A stretch of 64,000 nt of DNA, taken from assembly GCF_004365635.1 (NCBI RefSeq), contig NZ_SOBH01000003.1:558001-622000 (forward strand), written 5' to 3'. The translations under genes were made by a program, and so were the position numbers. This DNA is from Litoreibacter halocynthiae. Its GTDB lineage: Bacteria; Pseudomonadota; Alphaproteobacteria; Rhodobacterales; Rhodobacteraceae. Below are positions 36,243-45,559 of the stretch, piece by piece; within the stretch, counting starts at the first letter, position 1, and every line of letters starts with the position of its first letter. A model generated the notes under the pieces. It searched no databases. It was not told the origin of the DNA and was given only the letters and a program-made list of their open reading frames with translations.

Positions 36243-37169
36243 TCAAGCTTTGGGCAGGATCAAATCCGTGCCCGATGGTCCTTGGCAAAACGCTACGCAG
36301 CTTTCGGCGAACATCTCAATTAGTCTTCGCTTAGGCCCCGATGCAAAGCCGAGTGACAGGGTGACACCGCTTGTGCTGTCGGTGATTGGCAGGCAGCGAA
36401 TGTTGCTGCCTGAATACGTCGGCACGTCCCGTGGTTTCATGTTCAAAAGGGAAATCCCGATTTTCGAGGCGACAAGTGAACGGACCATTTCCGTAGAATT
36501 TGCAGTTGCCACGATCTGAAGATCTGCGCCCCCTTGCTCAAGCAATTCCAGGTAATACCCACGCGCGGCAGGCCGGTCCAAAAGGATCAGCGGTTCACAC
36601 ACAATTTGGGAGACCGTCACAGCATCATAAGCTGCTAAGGCATGGTCAGCCGGACACAGGCAATAGGTTGGTGCATAGATAAGCGTTCGGGTCTCGATCT
36701 GTGGGTTGGGCAGTTCTTCGACAAACAGGATCATATCGAATTGTCCGTCCAGCAACCCCTGTTGGATCGAGTCATTGTCGCCTTCGGTGAATGTGAAGGC
36801 CACGCCGGGATAGGCTGCCAACATTTGTGCGGCAAGCTCTGGCAAGAAGGCAGGGGCGATTGGCGCGTTGTATCCGATTGCCAAATTTCCCGAGAGGCTG
36901 GATTGCAGGTCGGAGACATCCGTCAGCAACATATCATACCGGTCCAATAAATCATCAATGCGCCGCCCAATGTCGCGGCCCGCTGCGGTTGGAAATATCC
37001 CCTTGGCCCGTGCGCGTGTCACGAGCGCAACGCCAAAGGCGGCTTCGGCCTTATCCAAAGCGGCTGCGATTGCAGATGGCGTCACATGGGCAGCCTCGGC
37101 CGCGTGGGTGATGCTGCCATATTTCAGTGCAGCTTGAACGTAGCGCATTGCGCGGACGGACAATGTCAT
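36243..37169 (-). CDS. LysR-family transcriptional regulator
   Basis: A 308-residue LysR regulator: N-terminal winged HTH (about 5-62, GSITHAAEAAHVTPSAIAAALDKAEAAFG) and a periplasmic-binding-like effector domain (about 90-300). It is divergent from the flavoenzyme gene at 37273, with about 100 bases between, the standard arrangement for a LysR protein and its target. By that logic its effector is a methylated amine such as dimethylglycine or sarcosine (inference). Confidence 0.87.
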   Translation of the reverse strand: MTLSVRAMRYVQAALKYGSITHAAEAAHVTPSAIAAALDKAEAAFGVALVTRARAKGIFPTAAGRDIGRRIDDLLDRYDMLLTDVSDLQSSLSGNLAIGYNAPIAPAFLPELAAQMLAAYPGVAFTFTEGDNDSIQQGLLDGQFDMILFVEELPNPQIETRTLIYAPTYCLCPADHALAAYDAVTVSQIVCEPLILLDRPAARGYYLELLEQGGADLQIVATANSTEMVRSLVASKIGISLLNMKPRDVPTYSGSNIRCLPITDSTSGVTLSLGFASGPKRRLIEMFAESCVAFCQGPSGTDLILPKA

Positions 37170-37272
37170 GACTTAACCTCGGATTTTTTGAGATATTGCA
37201 TCACATAAAACTATTTTCCAAAGGATAACGCATTTGGCAGGGTGTCTCTGACCATAGATCGGGGATCGAGTC

Positions 37273-39708
37273 ATGAAATCCAGAACCAAAGTTGTCGTCA
37301 TCGGCGGTGGCATTGCCGGTTGTTCGACGTTGTATCACCTCACCCAAGAGGGGTGGTCAGATGTCGTCTTGGTCGAGCGCGATGAGCTGACGTCTGGCAC
37401 CACGTGGCATTCGGCGGCGCAGGTCACAAATTTCGGCATGGCCCAGACTATGGTTGGCCTCAAGTCCCACTCCATCGCGCTTTACAAGAAGTTGCGTGAC
37501 GATCCCGAATACCCAGTGGGCTATCACCATGGCGATGGCGGTATTCGGCTCGCCAATACCGAAGAACAAATGCAGGGCTATCGCCACTTCGCCTCTATGG
37601 CGCGCGGGATGGGAGTGGAATACGAGGTCATTGATGCGCAGGAATGTGCGCGCCGCCACCCGTTGATTACAACAACGAACCTGCTGGGCGGGCTTTGGGA
37701 CGGGCAGGACGGCGATATTGACCCCGCTCAGCTTTGCCAAGCGCTTGCCTTTCATGCGCGTAAGGCGGGCGCAGAGATCTATCGCAACACACCCGTCACC
37801 CGCCTGACGCAACACAAGGATGACACTTGGACGGTTCACACCGATCACGGTGATATTGACTGCGACTTCATCGTGAACGCCGGCGGATACCGCGTGAACG
37901 AAATTGGCGCGATGATGGGCGTGCAGCATCCTGTTGCGTCGATGGAGCACCAATATTTCATCACAGAAGACATCCCTGCCATCGCGGCGGCCGGACACCG
38001 GATGCCGCTGCTTCGCTGCCCGATCTCGGATTACTACTCGCGTCAGGAAAAGGGCGGTCTACTGGTCGGGTTCTACGAGCAGGACTGCAAAACTTGGGGG
38101 ATGGACGGGATCAGCCCAAGTTTTTCCAACGATCTTTGCCCTGATGATCTGGACCGTGTGATGGACGTTCTTGAAGGGGCGTTTGAACGCATGCCCGCAT
38201 TGGCCGAGGTCGGCATCAAACGGATCGTAAATGGCCCGATTACCTATACCATCGACGGAGCGCCATTGGTTGGTCCTATTCCGGGCAAGCGTAACGCCTA
38301 TTGCATTATCGGTCTGCGCGCAGGCTTGGGTGAAGGCGGCGGCCATGGTTGGTTGCTTGCGCAGCAGATTGTTCATGGAGAGGCCTGCTACGACACTTGG
38401 GTGACAGACCCCCGACGCTTCACCGGACATGCGACCGTTGAATTGACTGCACGAAAGTCGATTGAGGATTATCAAAACGAATTCCGTTTCCATTTCCCCC
38501 ATGAGCATCGGCCCGCAGGGCGTAATGCCAAGACAACGCCGCTGACACCTATTCTCGCTGCGGAAGGGGCAGAGTTTACCGTCGTGAACGGGTGGGAGCG
38601 CGTCGATTACATCAAACCCGCACCAGATTTTCACCCCTCGCTCAGCTTCAATTTCGATGAAGCCTTTGACGTTGTTGCTGCCGAAGTGAACAACGTTGCC
38701 ACAAATGTGGGGCTAACCGAGGTCAACGGCTTCAACCGGATCGAGATTACCGGCAAGGATCGTCACGCCTTCCTTGACCGCATGATCTGTGGGACCGTTT
38801 CGAGGCGCGGTGGGCGCGTTGGGCTTGGCTACCTGCTTAACGAACACGGGTGCATCAAGGGCGAAGCGACGGTTGCCAATCTGCCCGCCTCGGACCGGGG
38901 GCCGGATCGAATCTGGTATGGATCAGCAGCCGCGTCGGAATACCACGACATGGATTGGCTGACCGCGCATCTGAACCCGGATGAAGACGTGCAACTGCGC
39001 AGCCTGACCAATGATCACACGATCCTTGTTCTGGCAGGACCGAAGGCGCGCGCTGTTCTGTCCGAGTGCGCGCGCGGCGACTGGTCTGCCGCGTCATTTC
39101 CGTGGCTTTCAGTCCGTGAATGCACAATCGGTTTCGCACCTGCCATCGTAATGGGCGTCAGCTTTTCAGGCGAATTGGCGTATGAAATCCACGTGCCAAA
39201 CGCCTCTCTCCACGCCGCTTATCTGGCGCTAAGGGCGGCTGGTGAGACGCATGGCCTGAAACTCTTCGGGGCGCGTGCTGTTGATTCCATGCGCATGGAA
39301 AAAGGGTTCCTGCACTGGAAGGCGGATTTGATTACGGAATTTGATCCATTTGAAACGGGCCTCTCGCGCTTCGTTAAGTTGGACAAAGAAGACTTCATTG
39401 GTAAGGCCGCGCTATTGAAACGTCAGGCCGCTGGGCCACAGAGCCAGTTGGTCACGCTCAAGATTGATGCGGCCCATGCGCCAGCGCATCCGGGAGCGTC
39501 GTTGATGCAAGGCGACAAAGTGATCGGCACAATCACCTCCGGGGACTACGGCCACCGCGTAGGCATGAACCTCGCCTATGCTTTCGTCACCTCTGGTTTC
39601 AGCCAAACAGGTTCAACGATGCAGCTCGATTTGTGCGGCGAACGCGTTGCTGCGCAGGTCATCGATCCATCGCCCTATGATCCAGAATTCGCACGGATGC
39701 GGAGCTAA
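37273..39708 (+). CDS. Dimethylglycine/sarcosine dehydrogenase-like FAD and folate enzyme
   Basis: An 811-residue flavoenzyme. The N-terminal DAO domain has the dinucleotide motif VVVIGGGIAGCSTLYHL (10-26) and the SGTTWHSAAQV block where FAD is covalently bound in relatives (His at W-H). A central FAO_M segment and a C-terminal GcvT aminomethyltransferase-like folate domain (about 440-800, FLDRMICGTVSRRGGRVGLGY, then ALRAAGETHGLKLFGARAVDSMRMEKGF) follow. It would demethylate dimethylglycine or sarcosine, giving methylene-tetrahydrofolate. The region is transcribed away from a LysR gene and stands alone, without the usual betaine-pathway neighbours. Confidence 0.85.
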   Translation: MKSRTKVVVIGGGIAGCSTLYHLTQEGWSDVVLVERDELTSGTTWHSAAQVTNFGMAQTMVGLKSHSIALYKKLRDDPEYPVGYHHGDGGIRLANTEEQMQGYRHFASMARGMGVEYEVIDAQECARRHPLITTTNLLGGLWDGQDGDIDPAQLCQALAFHARKAGAEIYRNTPVTRLTQHKDDTWTVHTDHGDIDCDFIVNAGGYRVNEIGAMMGVQHPVASMEHQYFITEDIPAIAAAGHRMPLLRCPISDYYSRQEKGGLLVGFYEQDCKTWGMDGISPSFSNDLCPDDLDRVMDVLEGAFERMPALAEVGIKRIVNGPITYTIDGAPLVGPIPGKRNAYCIIGLRAGLGEGGGHGWLLAQQIVHGEACYDTWVTDPRRFTGHATVELTARKSIEDYQNEFRFHFPHEHRPAGRNAKTTPLTPILAAEGAEFTVVNGWERVDYIKPAPDFHPSLSFNFDEAFDVVAAEVNNVATNVGLTEVNGFNRIEITGKDRHAFLDRMICGTVSRRGGRVGLGYLLNEHGCIKGEATVANLPASDRGPDRIWYGSAAASEYHDMDWLTAHLNPDEDVQLRSLTNDHTILVLAGPKARAVLSECARGDWSAASFPWLSVRECTIGFAPAIVMGVSFSGELAYEIHVPNASLHAAYLALRAAGETHGLKLFGARAVDSMRMEKGFLHWKADLITEFDPFETGLSRFVKLDKEDFIGKAALLKRQAAGPQSQLVTLKIDAAHAPAHPGASLMQGDKVIGTITSGDYGHRVGMNLAYAFVTSGFSQTGSTMQLDLCGERVAAQVIDPSPYDPEFARMRS

Positions 39709-39744
39709 TCGGTACATTTCAGGAGGATTCCTAAAGCGTCGCTT

Positions 39745-39759
39745 CAAGCCCGCGGCTTG
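39745..39759. terminator. Small hairpin downstream of the flavoenzyme gene
   Basis: CAAGCC-CGC-GGCTTG, six-base perfect arms, 37 bases after the stop. There is no T-run, so termination is only possible. Confidence 0.35.
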
Positions 39760-39775
39760 TGCCGACTATCCTCGA

Positions 39776-39815
39776 TCTGCACCATTTCTGCACAACTCCA
39801 CGCGCCCATCTGCAC
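39776..39815 (+). promoter_or_regulatory. Three helically phased direct repeats upstream of the exosortase operon
   Basis: TCTGCAC occurs at 39776-39782, 39787-39793 and 39809-39815: starts are 11 and 22 bases apart, so all three face the same side of the helix. OmpR-type response regulators bind direct repeats spaced about 10-11 bases, and the operon encodes one. The last copy ends 21 bases before the exosortase ATG, so binding here could autoregulate the operon. Confidence 0.5.
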
Positions 39816-39836
39816 CACCAGCCGTGACAAAGCGGC

Positions 39837-41258
39837 ATGGAACAAAAACGCGATACCCTGCTTTGGATTGGTCTGACTGTTGCGTCAGCGCTGCTCGCCA
39901 TCGAGCCCGTTCGGTGGCTTTTTACAAGCTGGCGTGACCCGTCCTACCAGTCCTACGGCGCGGTTTATTGCATCGTGCTTGTGGGTCTGGTGGGGCTGTC
40001 CCTGAAAAGCTCCCCTCCCGGCGGGCCAGCCATCGCAGGGCGCGTTTTTGTTCTATTCCTTTTTGCCGCCCTCATCCGGCTGGCGGGCCAGATGCTGGCC
40101 ATCAACATCCTGAGCGCGCTGGCCCTGTCACTGGACGTCTTTGCCCTCGCGACAATGTTGCGTCTGGATCGCCGCAAGCTCGCGCTGTCGCCGTTCTGGA
40201 TGGCCACGTTCTTCCTGTTCGCCTTGCCGCTTGGACCGATCTTGCAGCGGGTCGCGGGGTTTCCGTTGCAGATGGTCTCGGCCGATCTGGCGTGCCAGAT
40301 GATGTCACCTTTCTTCGCGGACCTGATCTGCGAAGGCGTCCGCCTGCGCCTGAACGGCGTGGACGCCATGGTCGACCTGCCATGCTCCGGCGCGTCGGGC
40401 CTGCTGTTGATGGTCAGCCTCTGGGCCTTCCTCAACATCCTGTATCGTCCGCGCTTGCTGACCGCGTTTACGGGCGGATTGGCCGTGATCGGGCTGAGCA
40501 TTCTTGGCAACGCCTTGCGAATCAGTTTGCTGGCTGGCGGCTTGGGGCAGGGCATCGACACCATGGCGCCCACGCTCCACAACTCGATCGGGTTGGTCAC
40601 GCTGATGGTTGCAGCTGCGCCAGTCGTATTGCTCTATCGTCCCTCCGCCAAGCCCGTGCGCATGCTGCAATGGCGGCTGCCGGCATTTCCAAAGTCGCTG
40701 CACATTCCAATGGTCGCGGTGGCGTTGGTTGCTGCAATTGCCATCGTAAACGCCCCGAAACGCCCGGTGGACCTGTCTGCCCAAGTGGTCCCCGCACGCC
40801 TGCCGATGCAACTGCTAGGCGCACGGGCCGAGCCCATCGCGCTCAGCGAAACCGAGCAGCGGTATTTCACCGCCTATGGCGGCTCCGCGCAGAAGGTCCA
40901 ATACGGGCCGATGGGGCTGAACATCGTGCGCACGACCTCGCCGCTGCGCCACCTGCATTCCCCTGAAACCTGCTTGCTCGGTATGGGCTACAGCGTGCAG
41001 TTTATGGGCACGCGCTACGATCCCCTCCCGACCTCTGTCTACGAGGCAACCGGTCCGGACGGGCGGGTCTGGACCGTCGCAGTCAGCTTCATATCGGATG
41101 ACGGCCAACAGACCCCCAGCGTCGGCGAAGCTGTCTGGAGCTGGCTCGGCGGCTCCTCGCGCAGCTGGCAATCCGTGCAGCGCGTCACCCCGAAATCCCT
41201 GCCCGAACAAGACCGTATTTCCTTTGAAAATGCCGCTTTGGCGGCGCTTGACCTGTAA
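39837..41258 (+). CDS. Exosortase with fused EpsI-like C-terminal domain
   Basis: A 473-residue membrane transpeptidase/protease of the exosortase family, which cleaves PEP-CTERM-type sorting signals after export. About eight membrane helices fill residues 8-270. The catalytic residues are in family context: Cys183 in DLPCSGASG, Arg228 in GNALRIS and His248 in HNSIGL. A helix near 290-305 leads into a C-terminal periplasmic part (about 306-473) with the EpsI-like motif HLHSPETC (His374, Cys379). Such fused tails occur in some exosortase subclasses; I cannot name the subclass with certainty. Its likely substrate is the next gene's product, 21 bases downstream. Confidence 0.85.
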   Translation: MEQKRDTLLWIGLTVASALLAIEPVRWLFTSWRDPSYQSYGAVYCIVLVGLVGLSLKSSPPGGPAIAGRVFVLFLFAALIRLAGQMLAINILSALALSLDVFALATMLRLDRRKLALSPFWMATFFLFALPLGPILQRVAGFPLQMVSADLACQMMSPFFADLICEGVRLRLNGVDAMVDLPCSGASGLLLMVSLWAFLNILYRPRLLTAFTGGLAVIGLSILGNALRISLLAGGLGQGIDTMAPTLHNSIGLVTLMVAAAPVVLLYRPSAKPVRMLQWRLPAFPKSLHIPMVAVALVAAIAIVNAPKRPVDLSAQVVPARLPMQLLGARAEPIALSETEQRYFTAYGGSAQKVQYGPMGLNIVRTTSPLRHLHSPETCLLGMGYSVQFMGTRYDPLPTSVYEATGPDGRVWTVAVSFISDDGQQTPSVGEAVWSWLGGSSRSWQSVQRVTPKSLPEQDRISFENAALAALDL

Positions 41259-41279
41259 CCCGAAACGAGGACCAAACCC

Positions 41280-43301
41280 ATGCGACTTTTCTTTATCCTG
41301 ATCCCCATATTCTCCCTAAGCGCGGTCTTTTCGGCGTTTGCGTCTGACACCGACGAAGTCGCGGGACGGGTCATCGCGAATGTGGCGGGAACGTCCTATG
41401 ACCTGCCAATGCTCGACAGCAAAATCAGCGTCAACATCGAAGGCGACATGGCAACGGTTGAGGTCACGCAAAGTTTCATCAACGAAGCACATGTGCCGGT
41501 GGAGGCGGAATACCTCTTCCCGCTGAACCAGCTTGCCGCCGTTTACAGCATGGACATGCTCATCGGTGACGAGGTCATAAAGGCGAAGATCAGGGAAAAA
41601 GCCGTGGCCGAGGCCGAGTTCAAGAAGGCCGCCCAAGATGGCAAAGCCGCAGCACTTCTGACGCAGCATCGCCCCAACATGTTCACCCAAAGCATTGCCA
41701 ACTTGATGCCCGGCCTGCCGATCACCGTGACGCTGCGCTACGTGCAGATGGTGCCGAAAATCGACGGCCAGCATGAGTTGGTGATCCCGCTGATCGTTGG
41801 CCCCCGATATGAAAGTGCGGCCGTGCAACTGCCGGATGAGGACAGCGAAGACGTCCCGATGACCGCCAACTCATGGACGATCAGTGACGTGCCGGCCTAC
41901 CCGCAAGTCGTGGGGTTGGACTTGCCCGACACCTTCACGTCCGAACGGGTTGCCCTTGATCTGACGCTGACAGGCGGCGTGTCGATCTCTGATTTCGGCA
42001 GCGACACCCACCAACTTGCGGTGCAGTCGACCGGGGACGGCCTGACCGCAAAATTCGCCAAGGGCAAGGTGCTCGACAACCGCGATCTGGTTATCCGCTT
42101 CACCTTGGGCGGCGAAACTCTAGAGGCCGCCAGCCTGTCCCATACGGACGAACGCGGCGGGTTCGTGTCGCTGATGATCGAGCCGCCAGCCGTGCCGGAT
42201 GCCGCGACGATCACCCCGCGCGAGCTGGTTTTTGTGCTTGATACATCCGGCTCCATGGGTGGCCAGCCAATGGCGGCCAGCAAAAGGTTCATGGACGCGG
42301 CCCTGCGCGGGATGCGCCCCACAGATTATTTCCGCATCATTCCCTTCGCCAATCACACGCAGAATTTCTCCAGCGTGTCCAAGCAAGCGACGGCGCGCAA
42401 CATTCGCAGCGCCCGCGCCTATGTCGACAAGCTGAGCACAGGCGGTGGCACCGAGATCGACAACGCGATTCGCACTGCTTTCAGCACTCCCCAGCCTGAA
42501 AACACCATGAAGATCGTAGTTTTCCTGAGCGACGGGTATATCGGCGGCGAGGCCCAGGTGTTGCGCACAATTCGCCAACGAATCGGCAATTCCCGCATCT
42601 ATGCGTTCGGGGTCGGTACCTCGGTGAACCGCTACTTGCTGGACGCCATGGCGGATGAGGGGCGCGGATATGCCCGCTATGTCGGCGTTGACGAGGATGC
42701 CTACGAGGTTGCGGAAACGCTGGCCGCCGACCTGAAATCCCCGCTGCTGACGGATATCTCTATCGACTGGGGCGATCTTGACGTTACCGATGTCACGCCT
42801 TCCCGTCTGCCTGACTTGTTCGCGGGTAACAGCTTGCGCATCTATGCCCGCCACTCCGGCACGGGTGCGGCGGAGGTCACGCTAAAGGGGCTCGTGCAGG
42901 GACGCCAAGCCGCGATGCCGGTCAAACTGACCCTGACGGATAACGCGGAAAACGCAGCTTTACCGCTCATTTGGGCGCGCAACCGTATCGCGTCGCTCAC
43001 CCGTCAAATCGCTGTGGGCGAGCAGCCGGAAGCCGCAGACAAGGAAATCACCAAGCTGGGGCTGGAATTCTCGCTCCAAACCCAAAACACCTCCTTTGTC
43101 GCCGTGTCAGAGCAAACGGTGAATACCAGCGGGCATCAGGCCACCTTGGCAAATGTGCCGCTTCCCATGGTGTCCGGCGTCTCGAAAGAGGCCTATCCGC
43201 AGCCCTTCGCAGGATCGTCCTCGCCCGAACCTCAAGCTATTATCGGCTTCCTGCTGATCGCCGCGATGACCCTGTTCGGGTTCCGGCGGAGGGTCCGGTG
43301 A
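41280..43301 (+). CDS. VIT + VWA surface protein with PEP-CTERM-like sorting signal
   Basis: A 673-residue exported protein. The signal peptide is about 1-21. A VIT domain lies at about 30-160 (SVNIEGDMATVEVTQSF, EAEYLFPL, RYVQMVPK) and a von Willebrand A domain at about 315-490 with an intact MIDAS: D321-T-S323-G-S325, T391, D418. The C-terminus is a sorting signal: SSS-PEP (649-651), a hydrophobic helix (653-665) and RRRVR. This domain plan matches the known single targets of proteobacterial dedicated sortases, but the signal here is of exosortase type. Adhesion or metal-dependent protein binding is the likely role. Confidence 0.85.
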   Translation: MRLFFILIPIFSLSAVFSAFASDTDEVAGRVIANVAGTSYDLPMLDSKISVNIEGDMATVEVTQSFINEAHVPVEAEYLFPLNQLAAVYSMDMLIGDEVIKAKIREKAVAEAEFKKAAQDGKAAALLTQHRPNMFTQSIANLMPGLPITVTLRYVQMVPKIDGQHELVIPLIVGPRYESAAVQLPDEDSEDVPMTANSWTISDVPAYPQVVGLDLPDTFTSERVALDLTLTGGVSISDFGSDTHQLAVQSTGDGLTAKFAKGKVLDNRDLVIRFTLGGETLEAASLSHTDERGGFVSLMIEPPAVPDAATITPRELVFVLDTSGSMGGQPMAASKRFMDAALRGMRPTDYFRIIPFANHTQNFSSVSKQATARNIRSARAYVDKLSTGGGTEIDNAIRTAFSTPQPENTMKIVVFLSDGYIGGEAQVLRTIRQRIGNSRIYAFGVGTSVNRYLLDAMADEGRGYARYVGVDEDAYEVAETLAADLKSPLLTDISIDWGDLDVTDVTPSRLPDLFAGNSLRIYARHSGTGAAEVTLKGLVQGRQAAMPVKLTLTDNAENAALPLIWARNRIASLTRQIAVGEQPEAADKEITKLGLEFSLQTQNTSFVAVSEQTVNTSGHQATLANVPLPMVSGVSKEAYPQPFAGSSSPEPQAIIGFLLIAAMTLFGFRRRVR

Positions 43302-44027
43302 ATGCACGCCTCGCTGGACAAACGCGGCGTGAGTTGCAACACAAATGGCATGACAGCCCGCATCCTCATCGTTGATGACGACCCTCACATCCGCGACGTC
43401 GTGCGCATCGCGGCGGAGGCGGCGGGATATGCGACGCTGGAGGCGTCAAACGGCCGGCTTGCCCTGACCCATATCGGGCGCGAAACCATCGACCTTGTGG
43501 TGCTGGATATCGGAATGCCGCAGATGGACGGGTTCGTTTGCTGCAAGGAAATCCGCGCCAAGTCCAACGTGCCGGTCCTGTTCCTAACCGCTCAGGATGA
43601 CGAGATCGACCGCGTTCTGGGGTTCCAGTTGGGGGCGGATGACTTTGTGTCCAAACCCTTCAGTCCGCGCGAATTGGTGCTGCGGATCAAGGCCATTCTG
43701 GCCCGCGGCAAACCGCAAACCAAAGCCCTGCGGCATGGCGTGCTGGAAATGGACAGCGCGGGTCACAACTGCCGCATCGACGGCGCGCAAATGGTCCTGA
43801 CCGCGACCGAGTTCGCGCTGCTCTCCACATTGCTTGCGCATTCAGAGCAGGTCCATGATCGTAGCCAGTTGATTGATCAGGTCTATGGGCCGAACAACAC
43901 CCTGTCGGGGCGGACGGTGGACAGCCATGTCCGCAACATCCGCACCAAGGCGGCGGAACTGGGCTGCAACGATATCATCGTGACGGTCCACGGCGTCGGC
44001 GTGAAACTTGGCGCGTGCAGCCGGTGA
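43302..44027 (+). CDS. OmpR-family response regulator of the exosortase locus
   Basis: A 241-residue two-component regulator: receiver domain (about 18-130, phospho-acceptor Asp69 in VVLDIGMP, Lys in SKPFSP) and a winged-helix DNA-binding domain (about 145-238, TATEFALLSTLLAHSEQ, SGRTVDSHVRNIRTK). The ATG at 43302 directly follows the target-protein stop and has GGAGGG eight bases upstream; an internal Met17 would give the usual short N-terminus but lacks a Shine-Dalgarno. It presumably controls the operon, perhaps through the phased repeats at 39776-39815. Confidence 0.88.
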   Translation: MHASLDKRGVSCNTNGMTARILIVDDDPHIRDVVRIAAEAAGYATLEASNGRLALTHIGRETIDLVVLDIGMPQMDGFVCCKEIRAKSNVPVLFLTAQDDEIDRVLGFQLGADDFVSKPFSPRELVLRIKAILARGKPQTKALRHGVLEMDSAGHNCRIDGAQMVLTATEFALLSTLLAHSEQVHDRSQLIDQVYGPNNTLSGRTVDSHVRNIRTKAAELGCNDIIVTVHGVGVKLGACSR

Positions 44028-45559
44028 TCGGTTCGCGCAAAAAGTGGCGTCCCTCCATCGCAATGGTGATCGCCGTTGTTTGCGCGGCGCTGGTCTCGGT
44101 GCCGCTTCTGGCCTTGCTGGCAGTGCGGTTGACCTCCAACCAGTTCGTGCGCGAGACCGAGCAATCCCTGATCCAGCAAGGCGCGATCTATGCCGAGATT
44201 TACGCGGAAGCCTTTACCGTGCTGGACGGCCCGTTGATCGGGACGGCGCTGGATAACGATCAGAAAGAGCACTGGAATGCCAATCTGCACCCCGCCCGCG
44301 CGCAGTTGAATGTGCGTCGCGAAAGCGTCGCCCCGCCGCGCCCTGACGGTGAACCCGTCACCGATGCGCTGGACCAGCGGCACGCGGATATCATCGGGCC
44401 ATTGCTCGAAATTGCGCGGCGTTCCCAAAGGACCACCTTGGCCGGTGTGGTCTTTCTGGATCATACAGGGCGGGAGTTGAATACAGACGGCGCGCCGTCG
44501 CTCGCGGCGGTCGCGGAAGTGCAAACCGCCCTGAGCGGTGACATTGGCGCCAAGCTCAGGGCGCGCGATGACGACTTTGAGCCACACGCATTCTCGTCGC
44601 TCAGCCGCGACACGGGGTTTCGCGTTTTCCTGACCTATCCGGTTATCGTGCAGGATCGTGTGATCGGGGTGGTCTACCTGTCGCGCACGCCACTGAACCT
44701 CGGAAAGTTCCTGTTTCAGGAACGATACGCACTTCTGACAATGCTGGTGTCGACGGTGATCGGGGCCACCCTGATCGGCTTGCTGCTGCTACGGCTGATT
44801 TCCCGCCCCATTCATGCGTTACGTGATGCATCGCGAATGATCGCAGCGGATCAGCAGCCTGACGACAACCCCGTGCTGCATTACGGCCTGCGCGAACTTG
44901 CCGATCTGGGGGACAGTGTCTCGACTATGGCGGAAACGCTGTCTCGACGGTCGCAAGAAATCTCGACCTATACGGATCACGTCACCCACGAGTTGAAGTC
45001 GCCGGTCACGGCAGTAATTGGCGCGGCGGAGCTGTTGCAGGACGACGCGCTGAACCCAAAAGACCGCGCCAAACTGCTGGGCAATATCGAAACGCAAGCG
45101 CGCCGGATGAACCGCCTTCTGGGCCGCTTGCGCGATATGACACGGCTGCGCGTGACCCAAGGTGGCAAGCCGGGGCAATTGGCGCAAATGCTGCCGCAGC
45201 TTGACGGCCTAAAGGTTGTCATGGACGCCGCACCGGAGACGACCCTGCCGCTTTCGGTCGAACACGGGCAGATGATCTTGCACCACATGGCGCAGAATTC
45301 GCGCGCCCACGGGGCGCAGGAGTTTCGTGTTGAATATGCCGACAACGTGCTGCGTGTGATCGATGATGGCGATGGCATCACCGAAAACGACAGCAAGCGC
45401 GTCACCGAGCCGTTCTTCACCACCCGTCGCGACCAAGGGGGAACCGGCATGGGGCTGTCCATCGTCGTGGCAGTGCTCGACAGCTACGGCGCGACGTTGG
45501 ACTGCCTTCCAAGCGCGGAGGGCGCGGTTTTCGAGATACGTTTCCGCAACGCCGGTTGA
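44024..45559 (+). CDS. Sensor histidine kinase of the exosortase locus
   Basis: A 511-residue membrane sensor: first helix about 9-35, a periplasmic sensing region of about 200 residues, second helix about 236-258, HAMP linker (LISRPIHALRDASRMIAA), HisKA with His322 in VTHELKSPVTAV, and a HATPase domain whose N-box is a variant (HHMAQNSRAHGA) followed by DDGDGI and GGTGMGLSIV. I start it at GTG 44024, forming a GTGA overlap with the regulator stop, although a GTG nine bases upstream is possible. The periplasmic domain would read an envelope or extracellular signal for the surface system. Confidence 0.87.
   Translation: MIGSRKKWRPSIAMVIAVVCAALVSVPLLALLAVRLTSNQFVRETEQSLIQQGAIYAEIYAEAFTVLDGPLIGTALDNDQKEHWNANLHPARAQLNVRRESVAPPRPDGEPVTDALDQRHADIIGPLLEIARRSQRTTLAGVVFLDHTGRELNTDGAPSLAAVAEVQTALSGDIGAKLRARDDDFEPHAFSSLSRDTGFRVFLTYPVIVQDRVIGVVYLSRTPLNLGKFLFQERYALLTMLVSTVIGATLIGLLLLRLISRPIHALRDASRMIAADQQPDDNPVLHYGLRELADLGDSVSTMAETLSRRSQEISTYTDHVTHELKSPVTAVIGAAELLQDDALNPKDRAKLLGNIETQARRMNRLLGRLRDMTRLRVTQGGKPGQLAQMLPQLDGLKVVMDAAPETTLPLSVEHGQMILHHMAQNSRAHGAQEFRVEYADNVLRVIDDGDGITENDSKRVTEPFFTTRRDQGGTGMGLSIVVAVLDSYGATLDCLPSAEGAVFEIRFRNAG

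Follow-up and report, generated by a model that had tools for sequence, protein, structure and literature searches.

Can an exosortase, one protein for it to process and a two-component switch be packed into a single locus? The question is raised by four adjacent genes in a 64,000-nucleotide window of the Litoreibacter halocynthiae genome (assembly GCF_004365635.1, contig NZ_SOBH01000003.1, positions 558,001 to 622,000; the window is that whole stretch, and coordinates below are positions within it). A first-pass annotation had read these genes, from the sequence alone, as a signal-controlled, one-target surface-display system in which the sortase of known systems is replaced by an exosortase. 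Our analysis indicates that the locus is very probably a self-contained, switchable exosortase module with one target.

The open reading frame (ORF) list of the window places the four genes head to tail on the + strand: xrtT, encoding exosortase T (39837..41258, 473 amino acids [aa]); the gene of its dedicated target, a VIT-VWA protein (41280..43301, 673 aa); a CreB-like OmpR-type response regulator gene (43302..44027, 241 aa as called); and a CreC-like histidine kinase gene (44015..45559, GTG start, 514 aa). They are packed tightly, with 21 nt between xrtT and the VIT-VWA gene, 0 nt between the latter and the regulator gene, and a 13-nt overlap of regulator and kinase genes. For the regulator, an in-frame ATG at 43350, directly before ILIVDDD, looks a likelier start than 43302. 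The gene upstream ends 128 nt before xrtT; because position 39709 is the first base past that gene, the span first drawn around the locus already takes in this 128-nt promoter region. ORF calls and NCBIfam and domain matches bore out the four-gene composition that had been proposed.

The enzyme is an exosortase T, as its match to NCBIfam NF033770 shows (678.5 bits, residues 10–473 on model positions 1–472, cut-off 250). The second-best NCBIfam model was XrtO at 81 bits; scores were 68.6 bits on PF09721 and 38 bits on the XrtN model TIGR04476, under its cut-off of 200. The initial call of an exosortase therefore stands, with the addition that NCBIfam already lists XrtT among its curated families. 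Cys183, Arg228 and His248 are present as had been claimed; they lie in the multi-helix exosortase domain and are invariant in all 77 aligned XrtT proteins, window included; so are His372, His374 and Cys379 in the EpsI-like C-terminal domain. The AlphaFold model (predicted local distance difference test, pLDDT, 91.4) has a helical membrane part followed by an alpha/beta domain. A profile alignment with XrtD, the second exosortase of this genome, spans both parts and reaches the H-S-P-E-x-C-L motif of XrtD's EpsI domain; the EpsI-type model TIGR02914 (cut-off 42.8 bits) was not among the XrtT matches at an expectation value (E) of 0.1. The structure alignments were built with 54 of 76 XrtT relatives and 55 of 58 kinase relatives. 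Litoreibacter ascidiaceicola is the closest of the named relatives, its XrtT being 94% identical.

The target protein begins with what by eye is a signal peptide and contains VIT (102 bits) and VWA_3 (65.5 bits) domains, the VWA metal-site pattern being intact (DTSGS at 321, GGGTE at 388, SDG at 417). It scored 464 bits on TIGR03788, the model of the proteobacterial sortase target, under the cut-off of 551.65. Its C-terminus, SSSPEPQAIIGFLLIAAMTLFGFRRRVR, includes a PEP-CTERM tail (43224..43298, + strand) composed of PEP at residues 649–651, a membrane helix and RRRVR. The first-pass annotation had called this tail PEP-CTERM-like and had seen no other in the window. The second part extends to the whole genome, where the tail, ending PEPQAIIGFLLIAAMTLFGFRRRVR, is the sole match over cut-off to the PEP-CTERM model TIGR02595; the match itself is slight (18 bits, cut-off 16, E 0.03). 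Because that score is weak alone, the assignment rests on conservation of the tail: PEP occurs within the last 90 residues of 70 of 76 VIT-VWA ORFs. Among the six others, the ORFs of L082, L087 and L100 are cut or broken, and in those of L059, L092 and L111 the motif is altered.

A tail model of our own (A2, built from 32 tails) gave the VIT-VWA protein 61 bits and the next place in the genome 12. When the same model was run on 16 other XrtT genomes, each yielded a single match at E ≤1.1e-8, always the VIT-VWA protein; the 25 further matches in all 16 together were weak, none under E 0.003. With one confident tail in each of the 17 XrtT genomes tested, the system is dedicated as far as the models see. 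The many other PEP-CTERM proteins that would speak against a one-target system were not found, and that claim held up.

XrtD itself, which the first-pass annotation did not mention, is full-length (626 bits, G000:C4:169244-169954; loci L001 and L038) and adjoins a gene that reads by eye as a glycosyltransferase. No target over cut-off of the VPLPA-CTERM model was found in the genome, and at this level XrtD is an exosortase without visible substrate there. The idea that it serves other PEP-CTERM proteins was not supported, the VPLPA-CTERM and PEP-CTERM models giving no further targets over cut-off. Both models are weak, with 24–25 positions; in a loose first-pass search at E 10 they matched 7 and 12 of 14 control genomes, respectively, falling to 0 and 2 over cut-off.

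Enzyme and target occur together. XrtT exceeded its cut-off in 14 of 390 genomes of an order-level sample and in 4 of 385 of a class-level sample. VIT-VWA matches of at least 443 bits to TIGR03788 occurred in the same 14 order-sample genomes, adjoining XrtT in each; below that score were a 125-bit relative in an XrtT-less genome and a second, 136-bit one in G439. Each of the four class-sample XrtT genomes had one VIT-VWA match, at 457–464 bits, and the XrtT-linked proteins of both surveys spanned 443–480 bits. A scan of named genomes, from which the best 80 of 83 XrtT relatives were kept as loci, had the VIT-VWA gene at 76; at the other four the contig stops ≤55 bases after the xrtT match or ORF does. 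XrtT without the VIT-VWA gene, which in most relatives would have spoken against the proposal, was not found wherever the sequence was long enough.

The two-component genes follow the same pattern, less strictly. The pair was found at 63 of the 76 VIT-holding loci: downstream at 45, upstream on the same strand at 4, upstream and divergent at 13, and in an odd arrangement at 1. The kinase is co-inherited with the module: among 12 genomes compared, a module-type kinase (at least 479 bits) was present in 5/5 with XrtT versus 0/7 without, where the best match reached 194 bits. Distance matrices of the four proteins correlated at 0.83–0.91 over 59 members, shuffles giving at most 0.155. Proteins entered the trees only if they passed thresholds on length and score, which left 77 XrtT, 76 VIT-VWA, 64 regulators and 59 kinases, window included.

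The pair is present as proposed, an OmpR-type regulator and a histidine kinase, but its type is CreBC-like rather than that of the proteobacterial sortase system. The best NCBIfam models were CreB for the regulator (200 bits, under the cut-off of 273) and CreC for the kinase (136 bits, under 356); the sortase-system kinase model TIGR03785 gave the kinase 37 bits against a cut-off of 612. The regulator has Response_reg and Trans_reg_C domains only, and the sigma-54 interaction domain of PrsR-type regulators was not encountered. In the kinase, HisKA and HATPase_c passed their cut-offs and HAMP fell under its own. The AlphaFold model of the kinase (pLDDT 86.1) shows a mixed alpha/beta domain between two long membrane helices, and its top Foldseek match in the PDB was a WalK model, with a low TM-score (0.34, taken across the full query). 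The extracellular domain of WalK is of Cache type, according to the accessible part of PMC4822843; from the predicted structure and this match, the sensor domain is probably Cache/PAS-like.

The claim of signal control gained support from a direct repeat in the promoter region that the first-pass annotation had not mentioned. The repeat ATCTGCACCATTTCTGCACAAC (39775..39796, + strand), a putative regulator site, has two TGCAC half-sites, which start at 39778 and, 11 bp on, at 39789; a third half-site, read from the window sequence, lies on the same strand at 39811..39815, 22 bp (two 11-bp steps) past the second. We surveyed 80 regions, those of 79 named-genome loci and the window; L096, whose match starts 138 bases from a contig end, was left out. 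Exact TGCAC-N6-TGCAC occurred upstream of xrtT in 49 of them, versus 0.07 expected from 100 dinucleotide shuffles, the largest shuffled count being 2. When repeated pentamers with spacers of 3–9 were ranked over 350 bp around xrtT starts, TGCAC with a 6-bp spacer came first (49/80), and the runner-up that was not a shifted version of it reached 4/80. The repeat is strand-specific: it was on the opposite strand in 1 region, absent from a 350-nt stretch within xrtT, and present 6 times in the 1.42 Mb that make up the rest of the loci. The window copy is the only exact one in the 64 kb. Matches in the window with at most one mismatch number 4, no more than chance, and so the case for the repeat rests on its conservation.

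A matrix made from the 49 exact sites was passed by 60 of the 80 upstream regions. Although trained on XrtT loci only, it was also passed by 21 of 25 loci of XrtT-less genomes (L243–L267) that encode the WW motif described below; a homologous regulator adjoins at 17 of these 25, and at the other 8 the stretch ends too soon. It was passed by 1 of 20 sortase loci. Among XrtT loci, passes numbered 50/62 with the pair versus 3/9 without (Fisher p 0.006; the truncated loci L068, L080, L082 and L086 were omitted, and L073, L083 and L112 stayed in despite short flanks). The classical cre/blr tag, to which the best-matching regulator family binds, is TTCACN6TTCAC in the portion of PMC4689548 available to us. 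This tag was rejected as the site: in 81 sequences searched between −400 and +150 relative to the start of the xrtT ORF it was not found at ≤1 mismatch, ORF starts being taken stop-to-stop and some contigs being short. A promoter and terminator consensus scan gave matches at or under chance. We propose TGCAC-N6-TGCAC as the likely, though putative, operator of the module's regulator because of its upstream conservation, its association with related regulator loci and its cre-tag-like layout.

A short peptide motif, [VIL]P-x-x-[LV]-x-x-D-[GA]-WW-[LIFM] (VPxxLxxDGWWL), is tied to the CreBC-like regulator family. Its setting varies between loci. At 10 Ruegeria/Shimia loci (L053–L058, L061, L062, L064 and L065) it is encoded by a small ORF between the VIT-VWA and regulator genes, for example at L061:13521-. 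Over the ungapped first 24 codons of this ORF, pairwise differences in frame were 274 synonymous versus 347 non-synonymous, and 46/542 and 70/549 in the other frames. Elsewhere the motif lies within an XrtT loop (9 loci: L069, L070, L072, L078, L079, L082, L086, L089 and L116) or at the end of the VIT-VWA protein (3 loci: L060, L063 and L075). At E 0.01 it was found in 86 of 390 order-sample genomes, and the window's own genome gave no match at that level. The best 30 loci comprised 5 XrtT micro-ORFs, 19 N-ends of DUF4153 proteins and 6 stand-alone small ORFs (L246, L248, L251, L253, L255 and L264). A related regulator adjoins 22 of the 30; at the other 8, all DUF4153, the stretch ends at most ∼105 nt past the gene. 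That the TGCAC-N6-TGCAC box lies upstream of the WW/DUF4153 ORF at 21 of the 25 loci L243–L267 marks a regulator family with its own box. A DUF4153 membrane-protein gene also adjoins the VIT-VWA gene in four XrtT loci (L093:13553-15124, L096:3619-5292, L118:10725-12281 and L068:10873-12213), bridging both operon types; in three it stands between the VIT-VWA and regulator genes, and in the fourth the contig ends.

The WW motif is possibly a docking peptide for the kinase. One may go further and picture the module as a closed feedback loop, one outlet of a wider CreBC-like regulatory family that has its own operator and a cytosolic docking peptide through which kinase and membrane partner are coupled. 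This peptide would then roam among the DUF4153 N-end, an XrtT loop, the cytosolic end of the VIT-VWA protein and a micro-protein down to ∼20 residues. If this were true, the XrtT cut would remove the peptide wherever it sits on the VIT-VWA end, and the kinase could gauge how much unprocessed target is left. We offer the loop tentatively and on balance doubt it.

In the reading that we favor, a periplasmic signal would be sensed by the CreC-like kinase through its Cache/PAS-like domain, and the kinase would phosphorylate the CreB-like regulator. The regulator would bind TGCAC-N6-TGCAC ∼40 bp before xrtT and turn on an xrtT–VIT–regulator–kinase operon. The VIT-VWA protein, exported by Sec, would stay anchored to the inner membrane through its PEP-helix-Arg tail until XrtT, with Cys183 as nucleophile together with Arg228 and His248, cut at the PEP motif. 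The body would then be released or moved to an acceptor, surface display being one presumed outcome, and might serve in metal-dependent binding, either within the envelope or outside it.

Several observations weigh against so tidy an arrangement. The xrtT and VIT-VWA genes are 1.4 and 5.5 kb apart at L103 and L107, and at L087 the VIT-VWA gene is broken. Three complete VIT-VWA proteins (those of L059, L092 and L111) have no exact PEP, and TIGR02595 matched over cut-off in 2 of 14 control genomes as well. Foldseek comparison of XrtT to solved structures gave nothing convincing (top E 0.068), so that a close solved structure is missing. Of the 80 upstream regions, 20 are under the matrix threshold: 12 have one good half-site (nine Ruegeria/Shimia loci plus L059, L060 and L063) and 8 have no trace. 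The Fisher test linking pair and repeat ignores relatedness. Finally, the pair was not seen at 13 of 76 VIT-holding loci; because the sequence at six of these (L087, L090, L095, L097, L103 and L114) extends over 3 kb to either side of the xrtT and VIT-VWA genes, some loci must do without the pair.

The pair-less loci would fit another explanation, in which the two-component genes are passengers or act mainly elsewhere and some other regulator uses the repeat before xrtT; three of these loci (L097, L112 and L114) still have the repeat. We consider this unlikely. The module-type kinase was confined to XrtT-bearing genomes, the repeat precedes WW-motif genes in XrtT-less genomes beside homologous regulators, and none of the 8 regions without trace of the repeat belongs to a locus where the pair was detected (six are without pair, and L080 and L113 end too soon). 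The link between XrtT and its VIT-VWA partner could also be real while the tail is handled by XrtD, or while other XrtT substrates escape the tail model. XrtD makes the former conceivable, since a full-length enzyme with no detected VPLPA-CTERM target is an enzyme without known work. Against these variants stand the identical distributions of XrtT and the VIT-VWA protein over 390 genomes, the drop in tail-model score from 61 bits to 12 and the one confident target in each of 16 further genomes. We regard both variants as very improbable.

It seems to us hardly more credible that the tail is a mere membrane anchor, with XrtT doing other work, such as glycan chemistry, and the VIT-VWA protein staying as its inner-membrane partner. 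In the literature found, as far as the sources were available, cleavage by the exosortase T family is nowhere demonstrated, and the EpsI-like domain with its invariant His372, His374 and Cys379 could have a separate activity. Yet 70 of 76 ORFs retain PEP, helix and basic end alongside the invariant Cys, Arg and His of the exosortase domain. Homologous VIT-VWA bodies encoded next to a sortase have a sortase-type signal instead, which argues, too, that this body needs release from its tail. Regulated processing of a single VIT-VWA target by XrtT remains the reading that we prefer.

Within its genus the module is patchy, occurring in 3 of 6 sampled genomes. In two congeners without it, sequence matching window 35–36.1 kb lies close before ybeY (∼0.4 kb in G657 and ∼1.6 kb in G476), so that window ∼36.2–45.6 kb is extra DNA relative to both. 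Besides the module with its four genes, this extra DNA holds, at 36243–39708, the genes of a LysR regulator and of an oxidoreductase that by our reading is dimethylglycine dehydrogenase-like. A third congener, G599, keeps ybeY and what lies downstream, and has different genes before ybeY. Just one of the 80 named-genome loci, L039, has both flanking genes of the window, which places the module in other genomic locations elsewhere. At one locus from a metagenome-assembled genome (L042:14037-15710) the kinase gene is split into two ORFs, perhaps by a frameshift or because the copy is decaying.

Species with PEP-CTERM proteins often hold twenty or more of them, as stated in the part of PMC3237569 consulted, and because they are so many per species, exosortase cleavage, acceptor and purpose are hard to test. 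In the module, the enzyme, the only substrate detected for it and the switch would share one operon with a mutable predicted operator, and the module is found in named roseobacter strains of Ruegeria, Leisingera and Litoreibacter. Whether the exosortase cuts at PEP, what the product is joined to and when this happens could be asked in one strain. The module may thus offer a compact setting in which to study a way of sorting proteins that is still poorly understood.

One known system close in outline is the proteobacterial dedicated sortase system (TIGR03784/TIGR03788/TIGR03785), which likewise has one enzyme and one VIT-VWA target encoded by adjacent genes. For comparison we used loci from 20 of the 40 class-sample genomes over the TIGR03788 cut-off (L181, L185 and L186 being shortened by their contigs). 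In all 20 alphaproteobacterial loci a class GN sortase-like ORF overlaps or comes after the VIT-VWA ORF, and the two sortases checked by family model both pass TIGR03784. No module-type regulator or kinase was found beside the sortase in any of the 20; the nearest to an exception is a kinase match of 30 bits where L184 ends. Among 30 sortase-type loci the tail is LP-x-[TGS] in 23; five were printed in another frame, one is cut, and L180 has no motif. The VIT-VWA tree, rooted with two distant relatives, separates 76 exosortase-type proteins, window included, from 20 sortase-type proteins as clades (support 0.97 and 1.0). The systems differ in enzyme and tail (sortase and LPxT-like tail there, exosortase and PEP tail here), in gene order (VIT-sortase there, xrtT-VIT here) and in regulators, and none of the module's four genes encodes a class GN sortase. 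Since the VIT-VWA body is what they share, we reject the view of the module as a sortase system with one gene swapped. The first-pass formula of a sortase replaced by an exosortase fails on the 37 bits of the kinase on TIGR03785 and on the pair not being seen at the 20 sortase loci. What emerges instead is one VIT-VWA body family that pairs with two unrelated sorting enzymes via different tails. XrtN of Bacteroidetes is another exosortase paired with a VIT-domain target.

In 2011 Haft and Varghese (PMC3237569, available sections) described VIT-VWA homologues whose tails are of LPXTG, GlyGly-CTERM or PEP-CTERM type. Among these vault protein homologues, of the same body family, is one in Verrucomicrobium spinosum with a PEP-CTERM tail and an exosortase; that case is from another phylum, and the sections available mention neither the XrtT family nor a two-component pair nor an operator. 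In our survey, L150 (in G439, ∼8 kb from xrtT) and L149 (in G731) encode distant VIT-VWA proteins of 772–776 aa with Gly-rich, helix and basic ends. These ends recall GlyGly-CTERM tails and may be a third type of tail, which in one genome coexists with the PEP type.

That a two-component pair controls an exosortase system has a precedent in PrsK/PrsR. According to the consulted part of PMC1569441, PrsR is sigma-54-interacting and tied to many separately transcribed PEP-CTERM genes, whereas the module has an OmpR-type regulator and one target in the same operon. CreBC offers the closest models for both proteins, a tag with the same 5-6-5 direct-repeat layout, and in CreD a partner that is an inner-membrane protein (PMC4689548, same portion as above). 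It differs in that the module proteins score under both cut-offs, the half-site is TGCAC rather than TTCAC, and the predicted object of control is an exosortase pair. Among the literature matches listed, we recognized no paper on XrtT, on a class GN sortase with VIT-VWA, on the repeat or on the module. Set against these systems, the kind is known; the strict pairing, the CreBC-like control, the putative operator and the spread of the module appear, by sequence comparison, to be what the locus adds.

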